Below are positions 1,846-27,342 of a stretch of 27,618 bases of DNA, one piece after another (positions within the stretch are counted from its first letter, which is position 1; each line of letters starts with the position of its first letter). The stretch spans positions 1 through 27,618 of IMG/VR virus record IMGVR_UViG_3300036792_000285; one strand, given 5' to 3'. A program made the translations under genes and the position numbers. The DNA comes from a virus. The notes beneath the pieces are model-generated. The model had not been told where the DNA came from. It made no database searches and saw nothing but the letters and a program-made list of their open reading frames with translations.

Positions 1846-1976
1846 CAGAACCCCCAGTCGACGTGCCCGTGGATCAGCAGGCTGCCCAGGGCGAAGACCA
1901 GGCTGAACACCACGGCCAGGAACACCAGCGCCATGATCTGCTGCCACCAGGTCATCCGGTACGGGTTACGATCCAT
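1845..1976 (-). CDS. Small single-pass membrane protein
   Basis: 43 residues. It starts at an ATG overlapping the end of the Rad50-like gene by 11 bases and ends in TGATG with the Mre11-like gene. A short polar N-terminus (MDRNPYRMTWWQQ) is followed by one strongly hydrophobic helix, about residues 14-37 (IMALVFLAVVFSLVFALG and onward), and a short HGHVDWGF tail. No family is recognised. Its position between the two subunits of an SbcCD-like pair is curious, but nothing in the sequence shows a functional link. Confidence 0.7.
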   Translation of the reverse strand: MDRNPYRMTWWQQIMALVFLAVVFSLVFALGSLLIHGHVDWGF

Positions 1977-2907
1977 GCGCGTGTTCCTTCTTCACCGGCT
2001 GGCCGCAGGTCGGGCAGACGTCCCACTGCGCGGTGTACTGAGCCAGCTGCTTGTTGGCGTCGTCCTCGCGCCGGGCCTCTTCCATTACCTGCTGGCCCGC
2101 CGATACCCACGCCATATGCGCCGTGTCCAGCTGGCCGAACAGGTGCCGCAGCCGCTGCCGCTTGAGCGCCAGGGCCTCCAGCTGGTCGAGTGACGGCGGC
2201 TCGGGCAGCGCCTGGTCCGCCAGCATGTCCCGGGTGGCCAGCGCCCGCGCCACGGCAGAGGTCAGGTCCCACAGCCGCTGTCGCTGCCCGGTGACCGCCT
2301 GGAGCCGTGCCAGGGCGGCCTCTGCCGCACCGACCGCGGCGTTCTCGGCGGGCAGGGTGGCGTACTGCTGCGCCTGCTCGTAGAGGGCTGCCAGGTCGGC
2401 CTGCCGCGTCTTGAGCAGCTGCCCTGACGCCAGCCGCCTGCGGTTGGCCTCCTGCGCCGCCTTGTACAGCAGGGTGACGTTGGTCAGCTTGCCGAGTACC
2501 CGGGCGACCTCGCTGCCGGTGGTGTCCAGCAGGTAGGGCATGTCGAACTGCCCGGAGAAGTTGACGTCCCCCAGCCGCATCAGGCTGCTGGCCTGCTCGG
2601 GTACCTTGCCCTGCAGCTTGGTGAACACCTGCCCGTCCTGGTGGTCGGGGGTGAAGACCGTGTAGGAGTTCTTGGCTCCGCGGCTGATCTCGATCCGCCA
2701 GTCGTCGCCGTCCATGCCCACGACGACCGTCTTCTCGCCGCGGGTGATGTAGCTGGTGCCGGACGCGTTGAAAGCCAGCAGCCGCACCGCCCGGACCAGG
2801 GCCGACTTGCCGGTCCCGGTCGGCCCGGTGATGACGGTGAAGCGCCCTAGCTCCACCGTCATCTTCCGGAGCGACTGGAAATTGCGAATCACTACCGTAC
2901 TGATCAC
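1966..2907 (-). CDS. Rad50/SbcC-like ATPase, N-terminal half ending at a zinc hook
   Basis: 313 residues, GTG start overlapping the upstream stop (GTGA). The protein opens like Rad50/SbcC: a beta strand with IRNFQSLRK, then Walker A GPTGTGKS (residues 28-35), then FSGQFDMPYLL, which fits the Q-loop region, then roughly 170 residues of coiled-coil-like sequence rich in A, L, Q, R and E. It ends about 12 residues after CPTCGQP (C298, C301), the CxxC of a zinc hook. In full-length Rad50/SbcC the hook lies mid-protein and is followed by a second coiled coil, the LSGG signature and Walker B; all three are absent here. The next gene but one is the Mre11-like nuclease. The two may form a reduced SbcCD-type complex; whether it hydrolyses ATP alone is doubtful. 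Confidence 0.75.
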   Translation of the reverse strand: MISTVVIRNFQSLRKMTVELGRFTVITGPTGTGKSALVRAVRLLAFNASGTSYITRGEKTVVVGMDGDDWRIEISRGAKNSYTVFTPDHQDGQVFTKLQGKVPEQASSLMRLGDVNFSGQFDMPYLLDTTGSEVARVLGKLTNVTLLYKAAQEANRRRLASGQLLKTRQADLAALYEQAQQYATLPAENAAVGAAEAALARLQAVTGQRQRLWDLTSAVARALATRDMLADQALPEPPSLDQLEALALKRQRLRHLFGQLDTAHMAWVSAGQQVMEEARREDDANKQLAQYTAQWDVCPTCGQPVKKEHAHGS

Positions 2908-3446
2908 GACAGCGGTGTGATCGAGTAGAGGACCCCGGCCGCGTCGGCCACAACCTTGCGCCCGTCCTCCGTCCGGTAGGGCACTTCGCGGAACGCTGCC
3001 GTGGCGGGCTTGTGCCGAGCCTCCTGGTTGGCCTGGCCGCGGGCGATAGCCTTGCGGGCGGTGACACGCCCCGGTGTCTCCACCGGCCGCTTGATGCCGC
3101 GCCCCTGCCCGGGGGTGTACATGTACTTCCCGCGGTCTACCCGGTCCACGTCGGTACGGTCGTTGGAGAGGGTGCCCAGGATGTTGGCGCACTGGTCGCG
3201 GGTCAGCCCGGTACCCGCCGCCATGTGGGACGCGGTAACTACCTGCCGCGGGTGGTCCTGCAGGTACATCGCGCCGCGGACGATCAGCGACTCGCCCGGC
3301 GTCCGGTGCGACATCCCGGCCCTGGCTTCGGCCTCGCGGGTGATCTTGGCCAGGTCCTCCGGGTCGTTCGGCGGCGACCACTCCTCGGCCTGCTGGGCCG
3401 CTTGCTGGATCTCTGCGTAGTCCTCGTACACTGCGGCGCTGCTCAT
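2904..3446 (-). CDS. Winged-helix domain protein, function unknown
   Basis: 180 residues, ATG start overlapping the previous stop (ATGA). The N-terminus is acidic and helical. The middle (about residues 53-112) reads as a winged helix: a first helix (LIVRGAMYLQDHP), VVTASHMAAGTGLTRDQCAN as the helix-turn-helix, ILGTLSND as the recognition helix and a wing-like VDRVDRGKYMYTP. The tail is basic (RVTARKAIARGQANQEARHK). This looks like a small DNA-binding protein, but no specific family is recognised. It is translationally coupled to the Rad50-like ATPase downstream. Confidence 0.75.
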   Translation of the reverse strand: MSSAAVYEDYAEIQQAAQQAEEWSPPNDPEDLAKITREAEARAGMSHRTPGESLIVRGAMYLQDHPRQVVTASHMAAGTGLTRDQCANILGTLSNDRTDVDRVDRGKYMYTPGQGRGIKRPVETPGRVTARKAIARGQANQEARHKPATAAFREVPYRTEDGRKVVADAAGVLYSITPLS

Positions 3447-7132: not shown

Positions 7133-7547
7133 CCGACAGAACCTCTCTAGCAGGCGGGTGCCGCAGGTACTCCGCGGCCCGCTCGAAGAACTCGGGGTCG
7201 TCACGCGCATTGCCGACCATCCGGTTGCACAGCGAGCACAGCAGGCCGCGCACCGCCTCCCGCGTGTTTCCGATCATGTGATCATGGTCGGTGGCCAGCC
7301 TCTTGGTCTTGCCGGTCGCCCGGCGGCAGATCGCACACCGGCCGCCTTGTGCCTCGTACATCCTTGCGTAGTCGCCAGGGAGCAGGCCGTACAACTTTCC
7401 AGCCATCCGCTCGTGCGTCCTGGCCTTGGCTGCCCGCTTGGCCTTTGCCTCGCATGGTCCGCACTTCCGCTTGTTCTGCTCGATCCGCAGCTTGGTCAGC
7501 GGCCGCCCGCATTCGCCCTGGCAGATGCGGGCGGCCGTGCCTGCCAC
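7122..7547 (-). CDS. Recombination endonuclease VII (HNH/His-Me finger type)
   Basis: 141 residues, GTG start overlapping the preceding TAG by one base (TAGTG). The C-terminal two thirds match the endonuclease VII family: CAIC (C71, C74), the catalytic DHDH (87-90), GLLCSLCNRMVGNARDD with C104, C107 and N108. The four cysteines hold a structural zinc and the His/Asn residues form the metal-dependent active site that resolves Holliday junctions and branched DNA in T4. The N-terminus adds C9, C13, C29 and C32, an extra zinc ribbon. The gene sits between a candidate SSB and recA. Confidence 0.88.
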   Translation of the reverse strand: MAGTAARICQGECGRPLTKLRIEQNKRKCGPCEAKAKRAAKARTHERMAGKLYGLLPGDYARMYEAQGGRCAICRRATGKTKRLATDHDHMIGNTREAVRGLLCSLCNRMVGNARDDPEFFERAAEYLRHPPAREVLSDGG

Positions 7548-9055
7548 TAGCTAGGTCCGGCGAGGTTCTTGAGGTCCTCGAACGTCCACGACTTGCCGGG
7601 CTCCGGCTGAGCAGCGGGCGCGCTCGGCGGCGCCAGCTGGGCCGGGGGAACAGACGGCTGCGCCTCCATGGACGGGTTGCTGGTCGAGCCAGCCATGAAC
7701 TCGTTCAGCCCGTCCAGGCCCTGCGGCGGACCGCTAGAAGGGGGGCTCGCCGGTGTAGGGAACGGAACAGGCGCAGTCGCGGCAGACGGCGCAGAAACCG
7801 TAGGTGCGGCAGGCGGTGCAAGATCCGTCGGCATCGCACCGGTGCCGTTGGTAGGGGGGACGAACGTCGCCGGCGGGGCAGGCGGCGGCATCGGCTGCCC
7901 AGTAGCCGTCTCATACGCCGCCGTGACCGGGTTCTGGCCGAGCTGCGCGGCCTGCTGAGCCGCTGCCATGTAGTCACCCTGCGGCGGCGCGGGAGGGGCC
8001 GGGGGCGGCGGAGGCTGCGGCTGGAAGTTGCCCCCCAGCAGGCCCATGTCCACCCCAGCCGTCTGCGGCTGGAAGCCGCCTCCCTGGCTAGGCTGGCCGC
8101 CGTAGCCGCCTCCGCCGCCAGCTCCCTGCGGCGGTGCTCCGTTGCCGCCGTAGGCGATGTTGTTGCCGCTGCCCTGGCCGCCGTAGCCCTGGGCGTACTG
8201 GTTCTGCAGCTGGCCCATGCCCTGCTGCAGGGTCTCGGCGCCGAACCCCTGGGGCATGACCGGTCCGCCCTGGCCGCGGCTCTCGTACGCCCGCACAACG
8301 TCCCACCGCTGGATGACCCGGCTGATGTCGTCGGCCAGCCAGTCGGCCTTGACCTTTTTGCCGATCGCGGCGGTCAGGTCCTCCGGGGTCGCCCCGTTGG
8401 ACTGCAGGTACTCGATGGTGTACTTGCGGGTGGCCTCGTTGGACAGCCAGATGGCCGGGGCCATAGGCAGGAACTCGCCGTTGGAGTAGGGCTTCTGGAA
8501 GACCTGATCCTTGTCGCACTCCAGCAGCAGGTCCACCGCCCGGATGTCCTCGTACGGGCCGCCCATCGACCGGATGTCAATCAGCTTGTCCATGACCTTG
8601 CCGCCGAACACCCAGATCAGAGCCGACACCCCGAACGGGTTGGCGATGTCGTTCCACCCGCCGCCCGGCCGCAGTCCGTAGCGCAGCACGTTGGCGGCGT
8701 ACTTGGGGGTCGGGTTGCGGAAGATGTCGGGCCGGTCCCGGGCCATCTGGCACGCGTAGCAGTTCTTGTCGTCGACGTGGCGCTCCTGCAGCACATCGAA
8801 ATTGCCCTGGCAGAGCGGCCCGGACACAAACCGGGTGTCCACCACGAACTGATCCTGTCCCTCGCGGTTCTGGATCTTCTTGTACGACGGGGCCATGTTG
8901 ACGATGTTGGGCGCTTCCAGCCGGTGGACGTACTCCACGACCGGCTTGCTGGCTACGAAGATGCGTGCCTTTTCCAGAGCCTGCAGCTTGAGCCGGGGGA
9001 ACCGGCTCTGTCCGCGGTCGCTCCGGTAGTCTCCGGTGATGTCTGCCTGAGGCAT
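7547..9055 (-). CDS. Candidate single-stranded DNA-binding protein with zinc site and long disordered tail
   Basis: 502 residues, ATG start preceded by AAAGTGGGG. Residues 1-255 form an ordered domain with aromatic and basic residues and a possible zinc site C82-x10-H93-x5-C99-x2-C102. Residues 258-480 are low-complexity, rich in Gly, Gln, Pro and Ala (for example QPQPPPPPAPPAPPQG). The extreme C-terminus (KSWTFEDLKNLAGPS) returns to a defined, partly acidic tip. A nucleic-acid-binding core with zinc, flexible linker and short tip is the layout of phage SSBs such as T4 gp32, and the gene lies between polymerase and recA. I see no decisive family signature; another DNA-binding or scaffold protein remains possible. 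Confidence 0.55.
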   Translation of the reverse strand: MPQADITGDYRSDRGQSRFPRLKLQALEKARIFVASKPVVEYVHRLEAPNIVNMAPSYKKIQNREGQDQFVVDTRFVSGPLCQGNFDVLQERHVDDKNCYACQMARDRPDIFRNPTPKYAANVLRYGLRPGGGWNDIANPFGVSALIWVFGGKVMDKLIDIRSMGGPYEDIRAVDLLLECDKDQVFQKPYSNGEFLPMAPAIWLSNEATRKYTIEYLQSNGATPEDLTAAIGKKVKADWLADDISRVIQRWDVVRAYESRGQGGPVMPQGFGAETLQQGMGQLQNQYAQGYGGQGSGNNIAYGGNGAPPQGAGGGGGYGGQPSQGGGFQPQTAGVDMGLLGGNFQPQPPPPPAPPAPPQGDYMAAAQQAAQLGQNPVTAAYETATGQPMPPPAPPATFVPPTNGTGAMPTDLAPPAAPTVSAPSAATAPVPFPTPASPPSSGPPQGLDGLNEFMAGSTSNPSMEAQPSVPPAQLAPPSAPAAQPEPGKSWTFEDLKNLAGPS

Positions 9056-9948: not shown

Positions 9949-10454
9949 CAGCGGTCCAGCGTCGTCTCGAAGGCGTACGCCCGCAGGATGTTGTGCAGGT
10001 CCTCCCGGGTGCCGTTGACCGCCCGGTAGCGCAGCCACATCTCGTCCAGCAGCTCGCCTGCCAGCAGCAGAGACCGCTGCGACTGCTTGTGCATCCGCAG
10101 CTCGGCGAACACCTTGAGGTCGAACTTGGCGTACCGCTCCCGGGCGCCCTCGTAGTCCTCGGCGGTCTGCCGGGTGCGCGCCGCTTCCTGCGCCCACATG
10201 AGGCTGTAAGCCTCCTCGGCGTCGGCCGCGGCCCGGGCCATAGCTCCCTTGAAGGAGATGGCGAACGCCACGTACTCCTCCAGCTGGTCCTGGGAAGCCC
10301 GCACGCTGACCAGCGCCTCCCGGTACGCAGTCGGCTGGTTGACCTGCTGGGCATGCGCGTACTCAGCCTTAACCGCATCCCGCAGCTGGCTGGCGTGCAG
10401 CTTGACCTGGGCTACCTGCTGGTCCATGGTCTGCTGAGCGGCAGGCTCGGTCAC
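9948..10454 (-). CDS. Helical protein, function unknown
   Basis: 168 residues, GTG start overlapping the upstream stop (GTGA). Almost the whole sequence is predicted helical and rich in Ala, Gln, Glu and Arg: QVAQVKLHASQLRDAVKAEY, a second segment around SFKGAMARAAADAEEAYSLM and a third around VFAELRMHKQSQRSLLLAGE. No Cys, no membrane segment and no catalytic motif are visible. It could be a coiled-coil adaptor. The pair with the preceding gene follows the polymerase. Confidence 0.75.
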   Translation of the reverse strand: MTEPAAQQTMDQQVAQVKLHASQLRDAVKAEYAHAQQVNQPTAYREALVSVRASQDQLEEYVAFAISFKGAMARAAADAEEAYSLMWAQEAARTRQTAEDYEGARERYAKFDLKVFAELRMHKQSQRSLLLAGELLDEMWLRYRAVNGTREDLHNILRAYAFETTLDR

Positions 10455-10792
10455 CGCGGCGCCTCCGGAAGGATCACCTTGCGCGTCTCGTCCAGGGTCA
10501 GCCCGGTCGCCGTGGACATGGCAGTGGCGAACGATTCCCGGTTGGCCCGCAGCTGCTCTTTGACCGCGGCCACGTCCCGGCCGAACTTGGGCGCCTGCAC
10601 CAGCACGAACCGCTCGGCCTCCAGGGTCAGCAGCATCATCGCCAGCCAGGTGGGCACCGGCTCTTTGATGATGTCCGGGTCCCCGAACAGCTGTCCGTAC
10701 TCGTGCCGGAGCCGCTGCAGGTCGGTCTCGTCTAGGGTGATGTCCCACTTTTCCTTGGCGTAGTCAGTAGATATGCCCTGCCGTACTTCCAT
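10451..10792 (-). CDS. Unknown protein downstream of the polymerase
   Basis: 113 residues, ATG start just after a GGTGGGG site. It contains WDITLDETDLQRLRHEYGQL near the start, a hydrophobic helix (VPTWLAMMLLTLEAERFVLV) and a charged C-terminal half (VAAVKEQLRANRESFATAM). The hydrophobic stretch contains Glu and Arg and is not a clear membrane segment. No family is recognised. It opens after a 14-base gap, one of the few breaks in overlap in this part. Confidence 0.75.
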   Translation of the reverse strand: MEVRQGISTDYAKEKWDITLDETDLQRLRHEYGQLFGDPDIIKEPVPTWLAMMLLTLEAERFVLVQAPKFGRDVAAVKEQLRANRESFATAMSTATGLTLDETRKVILPEAPR

Positions 10793-10794
10793 TT

Positions 10795-10801
10795 CCCCAC
10801 C
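10795..10801 (-). promoter_or_regulatory. GGTGGGG ribosome-binding site
   Basis: The minus strand reads TTAGAGGTGGGGAAATG. The AGAGGTG core can pair with CACCU of the 16S 3' end and decides the ATG at 10792 as the start. Confidence 0.65.
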
Positions 10802-10806
10802 TCTAA

Positions 10807-13371
10807 CTAGAACGCCAGTCCCTCGGCCAGCGCAGCTGAATCTACCGACTCGGCGGTCCACAGCACCTGAGCGCCCCCCAGCACCAGCGAGATCCGCGCC
10901 GCGCCGTCGTCGGGGGACAGGGAGGTCCCGGTGCTGACCTGGATCGTCCCGTCCGGGGTTTCCATGTCCAATGTGTTGGGGCCGGGGAACTCGCGCAGCA
11001 GGGCCAGGAACCGGCCTACCGCGTCCCGGTCGGGCATCTCCGCGATGCGGACTACCACCCGGCCTGTGTGAGGATCACGATGCTGGCCCACGTCGAGGCC
11101 GCCATCGCCGGCACCACCAGCATTCCCACCCACCCGGTCAGGTGATCCTGCCAGCGCGGCGGCTGCCCTTCCGATGCTAGTCGGCCCGGCCAGGACAGCA
11201 GGCGTGCCAGTCTCGTCTTCATCGTCTTCGTCGTCCTCCTCGGTGCCGATGTCGATGACCGCGCCCACGCCCAGGATCTGGTTGGCCTCGTCTAGCTTCA
11301 GCTCAGTCGGGCTGCCCCACCGCTTCCACAGGTGCCAGTCCGGCTTCATCACCGGCCAGTGCTCGGTCCACGGGGTCTTGGCGGTGATCGCCGGGTACAG
11401 CACGTCGATGACCGACTGCGGGTTGACGTCCTCCCGAACGTAGAACTCGAGCGCGTCGTGGATGTTCATCACCATCCGCACCCGGTCCTTGAGTCCGGCC
11501 TGCCCCAGTGCCTTGTCACAGCGGATCATGATCAGCTTCATCATGTCGGCCAAGGCTCCCTGTATCGGGGCGTTGCCCGCGGTGCGCTCGCCCCCGGCGT
11601 AGATCCACGACTTGTCCGACTCGTACGCCCAGATGGGATGGCGCCGCCCTAGCCTGCTCTGCGTGTAGCCGGTCACCTTGGACTCGGCGACTGTCTTGCG
11701 GGTCCACGCGGCGATGGCCGGGTAGGCGGCGAAGTAGTTGTCCCACGCCTCCTGCGCTTCGTCGACCGAACAGGCCAGCCGGTCGGCCAGGCCCTGCACG
11801 GTCAGCTGGTAGCCCAGGGCGAAGTTCATCGTCTTGCCGAACGACCGGAACCCGCCGGAGTCCGGCGACCACTGCTTGCCGAACAGGTCGCCGCCCGCGT
11901 CCACCTCTTCCACGCTGATGCCCAGCAGCCGCGAGGCGGTCAGCCGGTGCAGGTCCTCGCCGCGGGCGAACGCCTCCAGCATGGCGGTCTCGCCTGCCTC
12001 GGCGGCGATGATCCGCAGCTCGCCCTGGCTGATGTCGAACCCTACTCCGATCCACCCGGACGGCACGATGACCGCATCGCGGAAGTTGAAGTCGAACGTG
12101 TGCCCGTCGACCTCGTAATGGTATTTCTTGGGCAGGTTCTGGTAGTTGAAGTCGGCCGAGCTGAACCGGCCGGTCACGGTGCCGTGCGGCATCAGGTGGC
12201 AGTGCGCCCGGCCGTCCGGGCACCAGCCGAAGTCGCGCCGCCAGTTCTCCAGGTAGGTGCCGAGCAGCTTGGCCATGCCGCGGTAGTCCTGCAGCCGCCG
12301 CACGAACGGGTCGCTGCTGTTGCCCTTGAGGGCGACGGCGTTGGTCGACAGCTGCTTGCCGGACCCGTCCGGCTTGCCCTTGGTCCGCTGCCGGGTGGTC
12401 ATGCCCAGGCCCTGGGGCGGCGGCTCGTACAGCACCTCACGGATCTGCGGGTGGCTGTTGGGGTTGAACGGCTTGCCCTTGAACATAGGCGCCCGGCCGA
12501 GCCGCTCGGTCAGGTGGTTGAGCATCCCGGCCTGCATCTTGATCTGGAAGGCCCGGGCCCGGATCTTGGCCTCGTCGATGTAGTCCCAGTCGAACTCCAG
12601 GCCCTCGTCTTCCATGGCCCAGATCACCGGCCAGTTGTTCATCTCCAGCCAGTAGATGAAATTGTCCTTGACCTGCGGGTACAGCGTGTCGTGCAGCCGC
12701 CAGGTCTGGATGGCGTCGTCGCACGCGTAATCGTAGACACGCGGGTCGGACGGGTCGAGCGGGTTGAAGCGCAGCGTGTTGCGCTTGTTCTGCGCCATTT
12801 TCTTAGCCTGGCCGCCGAAGATGACCTCGTTCACCAGGTCAAGCAGTTCCAAATCGTAGCTGTGCCCCAGGATCTCCTTACACAGGACCTTCAGTTTCAG
12901 CTGCTTCCACCGGGCGAGTGCGTGCGCTTCCATCATCACGTCGGACCGCAGCGGGAAGTAGCCCTTGCTGGCCCGCACCTCGGGGCCGAACTCGCGGTGG
13001 TCGTACAGCAGCCGGTGCATCCACCGGGACAGCCAGCGCTCCTCAGCGTCGGCGTTGTGAACGACGATCCGCCCGGTCCGGCACATCCGCCACAGCGCCG
13101 CGGCGGACGCCTCCGCCTCCACGTTGTAGCGCGTCTCGTCGTGGCCTACCGGTACGTACCGCGCCCACCCGGCCGCGCAGGTGAAGCTGTACCCGGCGAT
13201 CAGGTTCTCTTCCGCATGCAGGGACGGGCTGGCGTTCTTGTACCCGCGGGGCTCGCCCTCGTACCCGGTCTCGCAGTCGAGGGCGATCGGCTGCCCGGAC
13301 TCAATCGCCTGCCCAGTGACCTGCTCCAGCTCGCCTACCGAGCCGATGAACCCGGTATTAGCCGTGGTCAT
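10807..13371 (-). CDS. Family A DNA polymerase with 3'-5' exonuclease and extra C-terminal domain
   Basis: 854 residues. N-terminal DEDD exonuclease: LDCETG (D32, E34), VVHNADAEERWL (N106, D108), YDYACDDAIQTW (Y215, D218/D219). Polymerase: TVTGRFSSADFNYQNLP (398-414), motif A DISQGELRI (D446), motif B R509...K513...F517...Y521, and motif C NIHDALEF (H638, D639). Motif A lacks the usual Tyr and Ile, and motif C has Ala where family A normally has Glu (HDE). The polymerase core ends near residue 690. An acidic linker (EEDDEDDEDE) follows, then a separate domain at about 768-840 (VVVRIAEMP, FLALLREFPGPNTLDMETP, ISLVLGGAQVLW) that resembles the C-terminal domain of bacterial DnaE. The ATG overlaps the zinc-ribbon gene upstream by 14 bases. 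Clamp-loader-like genes lie about 1-3 kb upstream. Confidence 0.92.
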   Translation of the reverse strand: MTTANTGFIGSVGELEQVTGQAIESGQPIALDCETGYEGEPRGYKNASPSLHAEENLIAGYSFTCAAGWARYVPVGHDETRYNVEAEASAAALWRMCRTGRIVVHNADAEERWLSRWMHRLLYDHREFGPEVRASKGYFPLRSDVMMEAHALARWKQLKLKVLCKEILGHSYDLELLDLVNEVIFGGQAKKMAQNKRNTLRFNPLDPSDPRVYDYACDDAIQTWRLHDTLYPQVKDNFIYWLEMNNWPVIWAMEDEGLEFDWDYIDEAKIRARAFQIKMQAGMLNHLTERLGRAPMFKGKPFNPNSHPQIREVLYEPPPQGLGMTTRQRTKGKPDGSGKQLSTNAVALKGNSSDPFVRRLQDYRGMAKLLGTYLENWRRDFGWCPDGRAHCHLMPHGTVTGRFSSADFNYQNLPKKYHYEVDGHTFDFNFRDAVIVPSGWIGVGFDISQGELRIIAAEAGETAMLEAFARGEDLHRLTASRLLGISVEEVDAGGDLFGKQWSPDSGGFRSFGKTMNFALGYQLTVQGLADRLACSVDEAQEAWDNYFAAYPAIAAWTRKTVAESKVTGYTQSRLGRRHPIWAYESDKSWIYAGGERTAGNAPIQGALADMMKLIMIRCDKALGQAGLKDRVRMVMNIHDALEFYVREDVNPQSVIDVLYPAITAKTPWTEHWPVMKPDWHLWKRWGSPTELKLDEANQILGVGAVIDIGTEEDDEDDEDETGTPAVLAGPTSIGRAAAALAGSPDRVGGNAGGAGDGGLDVGQHRDPHTGRVVVRIAEMPDRDAVGRFLALLREFPGPNTLDMETPDGTIQVSTGTSLSPDDGAARISLVLGGAQVLWTAESVDSAALAEGLAF

Positions 13372-14179: not shown

Positions 14180-15130
14180 CTACCAGGAGACGACCAGAAC
14201 CTCTGCGGCGCCCTCAGAGCTGCCGGACCGGTAAGCGTCCTCCACCGTGGCCAGCGCGCCCCAGCACCGGGCTACCCGGTCCTCCCCGTAGTCTTTGGCC
14301 ACCCCAGCGTACTTCTGCGCCAGGAACGCGGGCACACCCAGCCGGCCCACCACGTCCCGGCGGCTGATGTTGTCCCGCGCCGCGCGGTGCAGTGCTGCCA
14401 AGGTGCCCAGTCGGGACGACAGCAGCCCGATCGAGTACCCCAGCCCGTCATCGCCCAGGGACTCGGCGGCCAGCATCGCGCCCTTGCGGTCGCCGGTGAT
14501 CAGCTTGTCCGCGAAGTCGCCGGGCAGTTCGCTGCACAGCAGGTCCAGCGCCCAGTCGTCCACAGTGCCGCCCAGCAGCCGGGCCTTGGACAGCACGGTC
14601 CGCACCTCGCCCAGGTCGCCGGCCGCCCGCTCCAGCAGGTGCCGGGCCTGCGTGACAGTCAGCCCGGGCATCTGCCGGCACGCCCACGCGGCGGCCTCGT
14701 CGGGGTCCAGCGAGGTGCACCGCACGACCTGCCCGACCGTGGAGTCCCGCAGCCAGGTGCACGGCTCGGCCAGCTTGCCGTCCCCGTCCCGGGGGAAGTC
14801 GTCCGCACCCGAGTCAAAGATCAGGTGACTGCCGCGCAGGGAGTGCTTCTCAGCCAGCCATATGTGCAGCTTCTCCCAGTCCCGCAGCTTAGCGGCCTCC
14901 CGCACCGTCACCAGCCGGACCGGGGTCAACGGGATGGCCAGGACAGACGCCCAGATGTCCCGCTCGCGCACCCGCCCCGCGGTCCAGGTGTCGGCCTCGT
15001 CGGGCGCGATGGCAGCCGCGGTCGTCGCGATGACGTCTGATACCAGGGTGCGCTCCGGGCCGCACACCCACGTGACCCGGTTAGGCCCGTGGGCGGCGAA
15101 CGCCTTGGACCACTGGTTGTACGAACTCAC
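14180..15130 (-). CDS. DNA polymerase III delta subunit-like clamp-loader protein
   Basis: 316 residues, GTG start overlapping the upstream stop (GTGA). The layout follows HolA (delta): an N-terminal AAA-like fold with TWVCGPERTLVSDVI in place of a true P-loop, VRLVTVREAAKLRDWEKL, an SHLIFDSGADDFP segment, and a C-terminal helical collar region containing DRKGAMLAAESLGDD, YSIGLLSSRLGTLAALHRA and LGVPAFLAQKYAGVAKDYGE, a region typical of delta proteins. Delta opens the sliding clamp. The delta-prime-like gene lies upstream, with one gene between them. The length is near that of bacterial HolA. Confidence is moderate to good since the assignment rests on pattern and context. Confidence 0.72.
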   Translation of the reverse strand: MSSYNQWSKAFAAHGPNRVTWVCGPERTLVSDVIATTAAAIAPDEADTWTAGRVRERDIWASVLAIPLTPVRLVTVREAAKLRDWEKLHIWLAEKHSLRGSHLIFDSGADDFPRDGDGKLAEPCTWLRDSTVGQVVRCTSLDPDEAAAWACRQMPGLTVTQARHLLERAAGDLGEVRTVLSKARLLGGTVDDWALDLLCSELPGDFADKLITGDRKGAMLAAESLGDDGLGYSIGLLSSRLGTLAALHRAARDNISRRDVVGRLGVPAFLAQKYAGVAKDYGEDRVARCWGALATVEDAYRSGSSEGAAEVLVVSW

Positions 15131-15588
15131 GGCGTGATCAGGCCGCCCGGGCCGGGCTTCGGCCCGCTTCCGCCGCCGTTGCCGTTCTGCTGGGCCCGCC
15201 AGGCCTTGGCGATCACCGACTGGGGAATGTTCGCTCCCATGCCCAGCTGCATCTTGCGGACCTCGGCCTTGATGCCCTCCAGCTCCGAAGCGATCTTCGT
15301 CTCGAAGGCGACCTCGAACTGCATCCGCATCAGCTCCCTGACCTCCGGGACCACGCCGCCCAGCCGGCCGAACATGAAGTCAATGAACGCGTCCAGCCGG
15401 ATCCGGGTAACGGAGGCGGGGTCAACCTCCCCGCCGAACGCGGCGATCGCCTCCACCTCGCTGTTGTTGTGGGCGGTCAGCCGCTTCTCCTCCTTCCGCA
15501 GCTGCGCGGTGTCCTGCTTGACCTGCTCCAGCTGCCGCGCAGCCTCCAAGTCGTCGATCTCGGACTGCACTGCCTCGTCCTCGTTCAT
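15127..15588 (-). CDS. Coiled-coil protein between the clamp-loader genes
   Basis: 153 residues, ATG overlapping the previous TGA (ATGA). Residues 1-45 form a charged coiled coil (LEAARQLEQVKQDTAQLRKE). The middle contains DPASVTRIRLDAFIDFMFGR, then another helix (LMRMQFEVAFETKIASELEG), and the tail is Gly/Pro-rich (NGNGGGSGPKPGPGGLITP). No catalytic motif is visible. Its place between delta-prime-like and delta-like genes suggests it might be an adaptor, but this is only context. Confidence 0.75.
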   Translation of the reverse strand: MNEDEAVQSEIDDLEAARQLEQVKQDTAQLRKEEKRLTAHNNSEVEAIAAFGGEVDPASVTRIRLDAFIDFMFGRLGGVVPEVRELMRMQFEVAFETKIASELEGIKAEVRKMQLGMGANIPQSVIAKAWRAQQNGNGGGSGPKPGPGGLITP

Positions 15589-16406
15589 CTTGCCTCCATC
15601 AGTGCCCCCGCCAGGGCGCGCACCGCGACCTGGGGACGTGCCCGTCCGCTTGCTGCCAAGAGTGCCATACCGCGGCGCGCGGCGGTACGCCCGATGACCA
15701 TCCGCTCTGTGCTGCTGAACACAGGAGTCGGCCGTCCTGACGCGGCCGCGCCCAGCAGTTCGCGCAGCATCCAGTCCTCGGTATCGCCCCACTCGCGGAC
15801 CGATCTTTCCAGCAGGTCCTTGTCCCGGGTGGCGACCGCCTTGAGCACGTTGAGCACCGCCTGCCGGGCGGGCCGGAACCGCTGGGCCGCCTCCATAGCC
15901 GGGGCAATCCTGCCGCGCCCTATCGGGGCCAGTGCGGCCGCGTCCTTGGGGCTGAACCCCTGCCGGGCCAGTACCTCCGCCACCTGCCGCTCTGTCAGCT
16001 CGCCCAGCCGCCAGATCAGGCACCGGCTGGACACCGTGGCCAGAGGCGACCGGGACGCGACCAGCAGGAACCGCGCGTAGTCCGGCGGCTCCTCCAGCTC
16101 TTTGAGCAGGGCGTGCTGCACCGCCAGGGACTTGGCGCCGTCCAGGTTGACGGTCACCAGCTTGATGCCGCTCCGCGGCGCGGTGTCGAGGAACTTGCGC
16201 ATAGCCCGGATGTCGTCCACCCCGGGCCGGTCGCCGCGCCAGCGGTCCCACTGTCCTGGCACGGCGTGCTCGGCGATGTACTGCGCCAGCAGCCACTTGC
16301 CGGTCGACTCCGGGCCCAGCAGCAGCACCGGCTGAGTCGGCAGTTCAAGCTCCAGCGCGGCCCGGCACCGTTCGTGCCCGATGACCGGGCAGGTGCCCTC
16401 GGTCAC
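15585..16406 (-). CDS. DNA polymerase III delta-prime-like clamp-loader subunit
   Basis: 273 residues, GTG start overlapping the sigma-like gene's stop (GTGA). It reads as a clamp-loader AAA+ protein: GPESTGKW (31-38) as a P-loop in which the usual Ser/Thr after Lys is Trp, VNLDGAKSL (86-94) where Walker B should read DEA, LLKELEEPP (100-108), a hallmark of this family, and VSSRC (125-129), the SRC arginine-finger motif. Degenerate nucleotide-binding motifs with an intact SRC motif are what delta-prime shows in bacteria. It would place its arginine finger against an ATPase subunit not present in this window. A C-terminal helical region follows. A gamma-type motor is unlikely because of the changed P-loop. 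Confidence 0.78.
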   Translation of the reverse strand: MTEGTCPVIGHERCRAALELELPTQPVLLLGPESTGKWLLAQYIAEHAVPGQWDRWRGDRPGVDDIRAMRKFLDTAPRSGIKLVTVNLDGAKSLAVQHALLKELEEPPDYARFLLVASRSPLATVSSRCLIWRLGELTERQVAEVLARQGFSPKDAAALAPIGRGRIAPAMEAAQRFRPARQAVLNVLKAVATRDKDLLERSVREWGDTEDWMLRELLGAAASGRPTPVFSSTERMVIGRTAARRGMALLAASGRARPQVAVRALAGALMEAR

Positions 16407-17311
16407 GCCGGAGTCGGCGCTACGCGCTCTAGGTGGTGGACGACCGCGTTGAGGACGTGCGGGGCAGGCTGGTGGTGGTCACCCGGCTCTAGCTTCAGGT
16501 CGGGGAACATGGCCCGCTCGGCGCGGGCGATCTTGTGATAGTCCATCCCCGCCAGCGGATTGCCCGCCCGCGCCAGTGGCTGTCGCACGTGCGGCTGCCC
16601 CTTGACCGCCCGCAGCAGCGCGGTCGCCTGGCGGGCGTGGGCCATGGTGTAGACCTCGCCGCCGATGGTGATGCGCCGTGACAGTGCTGCCTGCTGCCGC
16701 AGGTTCTGGCGGAGCCACTGCATCCACCGCCCGGTCACCGCCTGCGATACACCCAGGCGCTGCGCCGTCTCAGCCAGCCGAACCTCTCCGGTGACCGCGG
16801 CCTGGCTGATCAGCGCATCGAACAGCCGTACCAGATCGCACGAGTCGCGATCGGACCGCTTGGGGACGATGGCCAGGAACGACCGGGCTTGCCGGATCCA
16901 CTCGGCCGCGTCGATATGCGAGGTGTCGTCTTCCACCCCGCCGAACAGGTCGGCCATCGACAGGCCGCTGTCCTCGTCGGATGACAGCGGCGCGTCGAGG
17001 ACAACTGCCTCGTGCTTGCGCAGCCGCCCCAGCTTGTCGCGCTGCCCCTTGAGGTACAGCTGGATCTGCGCGGTGACGAACGTACGGAACCGCGCCTGGA
17101 TGTCCTTGCCGTCGTGGTGAAACTTCATGCCGGGATCGAACATCCCGATCACGTCGCGCTCGACCAGCCGGGTCATGATGTCCATAGCGACGTCCTCGGC
17201 GTCTTGCGCCGGTATCGCCGGGGTGTTGGCCACCATTTTGCGCAGGTAGCCGTAGTACTGACGGAACAGTTCGTCTGGACCAGAGGGTGCCAGTAGACCG
17301 TCATCACGCAT
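16403..17311 (-). CDS. Sigma-70-family-like protein (divergent, ECF-like layout)
   Basis: 302 residues; ATG 17311 is preceded by GGTGGGGAG at 8 bases, so the longer open frame to 17377 is not used. Residues 14-95 resemble sigma region 2: LFRQYYGYLRKMV, then QDAEDVAMDIMTRLVER, then FRTFVTAQIQLYLKGQRDK. An acidic linker follows (SSDEDSGLSMADLFGGVEDD). A helix-turn-helix at about 176-203 (EVRLAETAQRLGVSQAVTGR) would be region 4, and an extra 100 residues are appended. Sigma factors direct RNA polymerase to promoters. An unrelated DNA-binding protein remains possible. It is the first gene after a 98-base leader, which suggests its own transcription unit. Confidence 0.6.
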   Translation of the reverse strand: MRDDGLLAPSGPDELFRQYYGYLRKMVANTPAIPAQDAEDVAMDIMTRLVERDVIGMFDPGMKFHHDGKDIQARFRTFVTAQIQLYLKGQRDKLGRLRKHEAVVLDAPLSSDEDSGLSMADLFGGVEDDTSHIDAAEWIRQARSFLAIVPKRSDRDSCDLVRLFDALISQAAVTGEVRLAETAQRLGVSQAVTGRWMQWLRQNLRQQAALSRRITIGGEVYTMAHARQATALLRAVKGQPHVRQPLARAGNPLAGMDYHKIARAERAMFPDLKLEPGDHHQPAPHVLNAVVHHLERVAPTPA

Positions 17312-17409
17312 GTGATAACTCCCCACCTGATTGGTAGCCTGGCTCCGGCCAAGAAGACCAGGCTTGTCACTTGTCAATCACCTTAGCAGGCGATAATGCT
17401 TGCGCGTCC
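17312..17409 (-). promoter_or_regulatory. Leader with -35-like TTGACA and hairpin before the sigma-like gene
   Basis: On the minus strand TGATTGACAAGTGACAAG contains a perfect TTGACA (17372-17377) in the same TGATTGAC context as the three repeated promoters further right, but no good -10 lies 16-18 bases on. Downstream, AGCCTGG (17358-17364) and CCAGGCT (17336-17342) can form a 7-base stem with a 15-base loop in the 5' leader. No U-run follows, so it is not a standard terminator. Confidence 0.45.
17321..17327 (-). promoter_or_regulatory. GGTGGGG ribosome-binding site
   Basis: The minus strand reads CAGGTGGGGAGTTATCACATG. It decides ATG 17311 over the in-frame upstream start for the sigma-like gene. 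Confidence 0.65.
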
Positions 17410-25920: not shown

Positions 25921-26396
25921 TGGTGCTCCCGCAGCAGGCCCGGGGTGGTCCGCAGCAGCTGGCCCTGGCTGAACGACGCCAGGTCGTCCTGCCGCGCCGC
26001 GGGCAGTGGCCGGGCGTCTTTGAACACGCCCTCGCTGATCACCTTGAGGTGGCACCGGGGACACTCACCGGTTTTCCAGTCGTAGCTGAACTTCCCGGCG
26101 AGGATGACCTCGAACTCGACCGGCTCGCCCTTGGCGACCAGCTCCTCCGCCTCGTCCCGGCCGATCACCTTGAGGTCGTCACCGGACCAGGTGACCCAGA
26201 TCTCCGGGGACCGGAACCCCTCCTGGCCCAGGGCGATAGACCGGGTGCGGCCCTCCTGCTCGGCGCACTCGTGCCGGTAGAACGCCACCCGCGGGCTGCA
26301 GGGAGCACAGCCGTCAGCGCGGGCCAGCCGGAACGGCTCCGCCTTGACGTCCCGCCACCACTTCCCGGCGCACTTCTCGAAGTTGGTCAGCGCCAT
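25917..26396 (-). CDS. Unknown protein with Cys pairs
   Basis: 159 residues from ATG 26396, ten bases inside the sigma gene. Cysteines C9, C30, C33 (DGCAPCSPR) and C44 could form one zinc site, C112 and C115 (ECPRCHLKVI) half of another. The middle is beta-rich (PEIWVTWSGDDLKVIGR). No family is recognised. It immediately follows the sigma-28-like gene. Confidence 0.75.
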   Translation of the reverse strand: MALTNFEKCAGKWWRDVKAEPFRLARADGCAPCSPRVAFYRHECAEQEGRTRSIALGQEGFRSPEIWVTWSGDDLKVIGRDEAEELVAKGEPVEFEVILAGKFSYDWKTGECPRCHLKVISEGVFKDARPLPAARQDDLASFSQGQLLRTTPGLLREHQ

Positions 26397-27112
26397 AACG
26401 CCCTGTCCTTTCCCGCGGCGCCGGTCAGTGCGCGGTGCACCGCCAGCGCTCCAGTCTGCTGCATCCGGGCTACCTCGGCGCTGTCCAGCCCCAGCAGGTT
26501 AGCCGCCTGCTTGACGCTCAGCCCAGAGTAGAACGTGAGGATCACCGCGAACTGCACCGGCACGGGCTGGTCCTCCAGGGCGGTGACCGCGGTGTTCAGC
26601 AGGTCGTCCACCACCGCGCGGGACTCCGTATCGGTCTCGTCGCGCACGTCGTGGTCCACCGGGTCGAACTGCACCGGCCGCCGCGCCATGGCGGCCAGGG
26701 TCTGGGACACCTCGTCGCGGGTCAGCCCGGTCGCGGTGGCCATCTCCGCCTCCGTCCGGCCGAGGTCCTGCCCGGCGTCGCGCAGCGCGCGGGCGTTGTT
26801 CCGGGTCTGCCGGCTCACCCAGTCCTGGCTGCGCATGAAATCCAGAATCGAACCAGTCATACGGCGCAGGCAGTACACGCTGAAGAACCGGGTGATCGAG
26901 GGATCGAACCCGTTCTTCGCGCAGTAGACCGGCCACCGGTTGTGCGCCTCGGTCAGCCCTTTGTACGCCAGGCTGACCAATTCGTCGAACTCCAGGACAT
27001 ACGGCGCACTGTGCCAGTGCTTCCACGCCACCGCTCTGGCCTGCGGGATCAGGTGGTCCATCAGCTCGGTGATGGGCCGGTCCTTCTCCGGGTCGAAATC
27101 GTAGTCGGTCAC
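26387..27112 (-). CDS. RNA polymerase sigma factor of the sigma-28 (FliA/WhiG) type
   Basis: 241 residues from the GTG overlapping the upstream stop (GTGA); the longer frame to 27331 is a shadow. Region 2: FDELVSLAYKGLTEAHNRW (42-60) and FFSVYCLRRMTGSILDFMRS (76-95), then QDWVSRQTRNNARALRDAG, matching the region 2.3-3 junction of FliA/WhiG-type factors. Region 3: RTEAEMATATGLTRDEVSQT (119-138). Region 4: LTFYSGLSVKQAANLLGLDS then EVARMQQTGALAVHRAL (192-229), the -35-binding helix-turn-helix. It would redirect host RNA polymerase to phage promoters. All regions are present. Confidence 0.88.
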   Translation of the reverse strand: MTDYDFDPEKDRPITELMDHLIPQARAVAWKHWHSAPYVLEFDELVSLAYKGLTEAHNRWPVYCAKNGFDPSITRFFSVYCLRRMTGSILDFMRSQDWVSRQTRNNARALRDAGQDLGRTEAEMATATGLTRDEVSQTLAAMARRPVQFDPVDHDVRDETDTESRAVVDDLLNTAVTALEDQPVPVQFAVILTFYSGLSVKQAANLLGLDSAEVARMQQTGALAVHRALTGAAGKDRALWR

Positions 27113-27342
27113 CAGTCGTCGACCGCCCGCAGCTCGCCGTGGGCCGCGAAGCAGCTGTTGGCCCCGTTGACCATCCGGGCGATGGTGACGGTCACGCCCG
27201 GGATGTTGTCCGGCGGGTCTACCTCGGTCACAACCCCCCGCACCCAGGTCATAGCCGGGGCTCCCGCACGCCGCCGCGGCCGGGCGTTGTAGTCCGGCAG
27301 GTAGACCTCCACCTTGTCGCCCGGCTTCCACTTGGGGGTCAT
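27109..27342 (-). CDS. Small beta-rich basic protein, function unknown
   Basis: 77 residues, ATG overlapping the helicase stop (ATGA). MTPKWKPGDKVEVYLPDYNA, then a basic loop (RPRRRAGAPAM) and WVRGVVTEVDPPDNIPGVTV, resembling a small SH3-like/KOW barrel. No specific family. It is coupled to the sigma gene downstream. Confidence 0.72.
   Translation of the reverse strand: MTPKWKPGDKVEVYLPDYNARPRRRAGAPAMTWVRGVVTEVDPPDNIPGVTVTIARMVNGANSCFAAHGELRAVDDW

Follow-up and report, generated by a model that had tools for sequence, protein, structure and literature searches.

The polymerase gene and its neighbours

The window, which is the entire 27,618-nucleotide stretch of viral DNA analysed here, carries on its minus strand an open reading frame (10807-13371) encoding an 854-residue family A DNA polymerase (PF00476, E 1.9e-66). 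Genes for homologues of the δ and δ' subunits of the bacterial clamp loader lie upstream on the same strand, and both subunits are also encoded in related records. The features of this locus are:

11257..13371, minus strand: PolA core, residues 1-705, comprising a 3'-5' exonuclease and a family A polymerase domain (PF00476, AlphaFold, motifs)
11065..11256, minus strand: acidic disordered linker, residues 706-769 (pLDDT <50)
10855..11064, minus strand: domain resembling the C-terminal domain (CTD) of DnaE, residues 770-839 (AF2 model, fold matches in the PDB, profile P 6.6e-5)
10810..10854, minus strand: C-terminal tip, VDSAALAEGLAF-COOH, residues 840-854 (terminal pattern; disordered in models)
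14180..15130, minus strand: clamp-loader δ homologue (profile A7)
15585..16406, minus strand: clamp-loader δ' homologue (PF13177, E 1.3e-7; profile A6)

The full-length AlphaFold model of the polymerase consists of a confidently predicted core (to about residue 705), an unfolded segment (706-769) with the acidic run EEDDEDDEDE (residues ~711-720), a second folded domain (770-839, the tail) and an unfolded end (840-854). The exonuclease (DxE) and polymerase motifs can be read from the sequence, and the residues of family A motifs A, B and C are invariant among relatives; a Pfam scan of the polymerase matches no family within the tail. The earlier note had described a family A polymerase continuing through an acidic linker into a domain marked by VVVRIAEMP (residues 772-780), FLALLREFPGPNTLDMETP (788-806) and ISLVLGGAQVLW (827-838), with δ'-like and δ-like genes upstream in the same direction; all of these elements are where it placed them, and profiles A6 and A7 bear out the two loader genes. 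The linker is ~40-260 residues long and mostly acidic in relatives; in the polymerase of contig L378 the tail domain joins the core almost directly. The pattern [GDNE][LIMV]x[FLV]-COOH closes 28 of 34 tails, against an expectation of ~2% per tip. Judged by its sequence, the tip is a possible sliding-clamp contact or a self-packing peptide.

Other genes of the window deserve brief mention. A small conserved gene (10451-10861) directly follows the polymerase gene, and L002, the closest relative, has it behind its own polymerase gene. The latter gene (L002:8001-10640) has an intein-like insert of ~340 residues at motif B (FGK/TMNFAL). An SSB homologue (7547-9055; so annotated in Microbacterium phage Magritte) has a long low-complexity tail, and a terminal FxDLLxxL-like peptide of SSB is conserved in nearly all relatives. 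The gene at 16403-17377 resembles a sigma factor by eye only, and that at 26387-27331 is sigma factor-like, with weak matches to σ70 regions. A metallophosphoesterase gene and an adjoining SMC/RecN-type ATPase gene (886-1947 and 1966-3381) form an SbcD/SbcC-like pair.

Fold and ancestry of the tail domain

Modeled on its own (AF2, 19 sequences; pLDDT 84.8), the tail domain is a strand-helix-strand-strand-helix-strand structure. When this model was compared by Foldseek with 350,542 PDB chains, the top six were all Thermus aquaticus (Taq) Pol III α, at probabilities of 0.91-1.00; the next chain stood at 0.12. Superposition with VIA-align gives Z scores of 8.4, 7.9 and 7.8 on Taq α (1127-1205/1219), 6.2 (1072-1155) and 5.8 on E. 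coli α (1072-1160), and 4.7 for the best unrelated chain, KaiB, with the proviso that a Z below 8 may reflect a common arrangement. The E. coli stretch that the tail matches is the τ-binding domain of α (PMC4703070). The likeness to the extreme C-terminal domain of DnaE, which had been proposed from the order of the sequence strings, thus holds at the level of structure, and the profile comparisons described below agree with it. A fold search against viral models yields weak matches only, the best of them to a phage DNA polymerase (probability 0.72). The β-α-β-β-α-β fold of the α CTD is present; the PHP-Pol3-HhH-OB context of a C-family polymerase is not. Because it is attached to a PolA core through a disordered linker, the tail is a DnaE-CTD-like domain and not a DnaE.

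Sequence comparison provides the second line of evidence. Aligned by hhalign with a reference profile of CTDs from 80 actinobacterial DnaE proteins and that of E. coli, the tail scores 22.7 (P 6e-4), a value reached by none of 400 column-permuted profiles (maximum 20.2, mean 9.9), while the reversed profile scores 10.6. With 35 tails set against the actinobacterial DnaE CTD the match improves to P 6.6e-5 (probability 64), and it lies in the right register. An HMM of the DnaE CTD matches phage polymerases at the position of the tail in most of the matches listed, the sole reversed control among them having an E value of 3.4. Single-sequence matches between tails and DnaE CTDs are weak, and the tail of L378, LIKVLKSHPGEVPVVIAL, closely resembles a DnaE CTD by eye. 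A HMMER search of PDB sequences and Pfam with the tail profile returned nothing usable and no DnaE in the PDB, because the similarity lies below the reach of a single profile. Taken alone, then, the profile likeness to DnaE CTDs is weak to modest, above chance, and agrees weakly with homology; with the modeled fold as first line and sequence as second, homology of the tail to the DnaE CTD is supported. The domain would have been derived from a DnaE, in the direction DnaE to PolA.

Distribution of the tail among related phages

Relatives were gathered from viral contigs, which were scanned with both individual sequences and alignments as queries. The polymerase belongs to a clade of ~40, from phages mostly of 100-150 kb, and ~35 of these polymerases, including those of Magritte (L001) and L002, carry the tail domain at the C-terminus. 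Magritte is the nearest isolated phage (35% polymerase identity); the L002 polymerase is 67% identical in its best segment. Most close relatives have the domain, down to ~20-30% identity. Over all tails the identity to the window copy spans ~10-60%, and most copies keep an MP turn, a PG that ends helix 1, a TPxG hairpin and an LGGA before the last strand. Since the domain recurs in most close relatives, it is a genuine protein and not translated noise. In a tblastn search of isolated phages with the 83-residue tail only the match to Magritte carries weight (E 0.01); a match in a fecal contig (L018) was rejected as an unrelated protein.

Among close homologues the tail is missing from L029, L033, L194 and L261. 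A profile search for a separate gene encoding it in tail-less records (G010, G014, G027 and G059) found no match. On a tree of polymerase cores the tail-less entries require three changes: one for a distant outgroup, one for L029 with L033, and one for L194 with L261.

A phage-encoded clamp loader and the C-terminus of its DnaX

The δ profile matches δ of PDB entry 3zh9 (E 1e-13) and E. coli δ (E 9e-5), and the δ gene is kept in all related phages tested. The δ' profile matches E. coli γ (E 1.7e-16) and δ' (E 8.7e-9). The δ' homologue has a Walker A motif (GPxSxGKW) and retains an SR(C/A) arginine finger; since the Walker B acid is absent, it is unlikely, on sequence, to be the motor of a loader. 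In whole-record searches a DnaX of the phage's own (TIGR02397, down to E 4e-94) and a β clamp (TIGR00663, down to E 6e-39) turn up in almost every related record that offers sufficient sequence. The phage DnaX has intact Walker A and Walker B motifs and an intact arginine finger, and its best PDB match is E. coli τ/γ (E 2e-72). Neither DnaX nor a clamp is encoded within the 27.6 kb window, while its relative L002 (record G021) encodes both, and the phage from which the window comes presumably shares the DnaX and clamp of its relatives. The components of a bacterial-type loader are accordingly distributed between the window (δ and δ') and related phages only (DnaX). The DnaX gene of one tail-less phage (L155:361-2529, record G010) has an intein-like insert in its Walker B region (DEA...VTHN CHG).

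The phage DnaX is a γ-length protein that ends ~35-75 residues past the start of the last shared helix, soon after domain III. The τ domains IV and V (Pfam tau_4 and tau_5) do not appear among the matches listed for three phage DnaX proteins that were scanned, and the full-length τ arrangement, in which they follow domain III, is not seen. What follows domain III in the DnaX of tail-bearing phages is a linker and then a terminal motif, for example PRKLSLSDIRQRKN, PTKKLTLADLTNI or GHRKATMNDITALIGS, typified also by KATMNDITALIG. Scored by a single regular expression within the last 26 residues, this motif is found in 29 of 32 tail-bearing and 2 of 7 tail-less phages (Fisher P 0.0017, kinship ignored); the expression was written after the motif had been seen, so that its absolute rate is flattering and it is the contrast between the two groups that matters. 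The background frequency is 3.6% in shuffled C-termini and 3.4% in DnaX bodies.

The co-distribution of tail and motif is partial. In three tail-bearing phages the motif is degenerate. Of the four close relatives without a tail, three have lost it, and the fourth is a genuine counterexample: L261 (record G059) has a polymerase without the tail and a DnaX that nevertheless ends in GLTASEMAAMVRN. Distant PolA phages that have DnaX (L386, L392 and L420) possess neither a tail nor a credible DnaX motif, a match of the expression in L392 having been rejected because it lies in an apparently folded part of the protein. L261 and L392 are the two tail-less phages counted above among those with the motif. 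In a smaller sample the motif changes on the same two branches of the tree as does the tail; in a larger one the expression changes state seven times. When relatedness is allowed for, the association is not significant: the tail changes only about three times on the tree, and two or three transitions are too few for a formal independent-contrast test to reach significance. A likeness of the phage motif to the end of E. coli τ was considered and is too weak to claim. A second group of DnaX proteins (L353, L354, L356, L358 and L368) has a variant of the motif, ASxxxMxxxLG, at its end; where a polymerase was found in these records, it is a tail-bearing PolA.

Candidate partners for the tail

The reading that we favour, and hold to be somewhat better than an even bet, is that PolA docks on the clamp loader that the phage itself encodes, with its DnaE-type tail bound to the C-terminal peptide of DnaX. 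The tail would be a copy of the τ-binding CTD of DnaE (Pol III α), the bacterial replicase, placed on a family A polymerase, and is predicted to grip the short conserved peptide (~10 residues) at the end of DnaX. DnaX itself, a γ-length protein with an added hook, would serve as a minimal τ; the loader (DnaX, δ and δ') would place the phage β clamp, to which the tip pattern [GDNE][LIMV]x[FLV]-COOH could provide a further contact, and the disordered tether would keep PolA at the fork. The more inclusive proposition, of a replicase with a family A catalytic part, a docking part and loader of the Pol III holoenzyme type, and self-encoded DnaX-δ-δ' and β clamp, is one on which we are evenly balanced.

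The notion that the tail recruits PolA to a clamp loader, as the earlier note suggested, is plausible and gains indirect support from the distribution of the DnaX motif; the note's choice of host τ as the partner is probably wrong. Hijacking of the host clamp loader through host τ is suggested by the tail's having the fold that bacterial τ recognises and by the loader genes inside the window being limited to δ and δ', without a motor. Since related phages encode δ, δ', DnaX and β clamp, the DnaX of the phage itself is the likely partner; that nearly all sufficiently complete related records specify DnaX and clamp, and that the terminal motif of DnaX tracks the tail, leaves the host-τ reading quite improbable. 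The absence of the tail from close homologues with the same loader genes, which the earlier note had set down as telling against docking, does occur, in the four relatives named above; yet three of the four have also lost the DnaX motif, and this joint loss fits a matched pair rather than a refutation. The one exception, L261, with its DnaX motif retained in the absence of a tail, lends something to the view that the tail, as a DnaE-CTD homologue, contacts some other protein of phage replication (DnaB helicase, primase or SSB) and that the DnaX motif is used for a different contact. Phage SSB also ends in a conserved peptide, FxDLLxxL. However, that peptide occurs in tail-less phages too and is therefore not tied to the tail, so that it was rejected as the tail's partner; with the joint losses likewise against it, we consider a partner of this kind unlikely.

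Two further readings bear on the domain itself. Its β-α-β-β-α-β topology is simple, a Z below 8 can reflect a common arrangement, and HMMER alone finds no DnaE in the PDB; the tail might thus share with the DnaE CTD only a widespread α/β ferredoxin-like arrangement of unrelated origin. Against this, the only chains clearly above the rest are those of DnaE, from two species (Z 8.4-5.8 vs 4.7), the profile match is in the right register and better than all permutations, and the tail ends a replicative polymerase adjoining clamp-loader genes, which makes fortuitous resemblance highly improbable. Alternatively, the tip might be the part that matters, as a sliding-clamp peptide, with the folded domain mainly a spacer. 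The terminal pattern of 28 of the 34 tails and the possession of a β clamp by these phages are in keeping with this; however, the glutamine typical of bacterial clamp motifs is not conserved and L378 has the domain without the tip, and we give the idea very little credence.

Comparison with known replisomes

The phage tail shares with the CTD of Pol III α (DnaE1; Taq 1127-1219, E. coli 1079-1160) its fold, the order of its elements and a PG turn after helix 1, as well as its location at the very C-terminal end of a replicative polymerase, with clamp-loader genes nearby (PMC4703070). It differs in its setting, on a family A polymerase at the end of a long disordered linker and with no OB domain; in its MP/TPxG/LGGA signature, which DnaE does not show; and in the terminal peptide that comes after it. 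In a survey of Pol III α proteins, the CTD is a feature of DnaE1 and DnaE3 but of no DnaE2 (PMC3919608). The 3'-5' exonuclease and polymerase core and the phage origin are common to PolA3 and other family A polymerases of phages, whereas the account of A-family groups in PMC12926913 names no C-terminal docking domain. With bacterial γ the phage DnaX shares its AAA+ module and arginine finger; unlike τ it lacks domains IV-V, having only the short linker and C-terminal motif. As in the T4 replisome (gp43/44/62/45), a phage polymerase is accompanied by its own loader and clamp; T4-like phages, in contrast, have a family B polymerase with a loader and clamp of the RFC/PCNA type (PMC7824862), which is also the type described in that overview of jumbo phages, and here they are of the bacterial DnaX/DnaN type.

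The bacterial fork owes its coordination to the coupling between polymerase and clamp loader. In the literature searched, coupling through τ was found only for C-family polymerases, and no report of a docking domain on a PolA was found; coverage of the τ C-terminus and of viral replicases was incomplete, so that an earlier mention is possible. These phages look like the owners of a hybrid replication machine assembled from two unrelated polymerase families, with a near-complete holoenzyme of the bacterial type around a different polymerase family. The τ tail of E. coli is disordered and was omitted from the cryo-EM model (PMC4703070); the tail domain and the ~10-residue DnaX peptide would constitute a minimal and testable system for the interaction that rests on it. 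If a single 70-residue domain plugs PolA into the loader, docking would be modular and independent of the fold of the polymerase.
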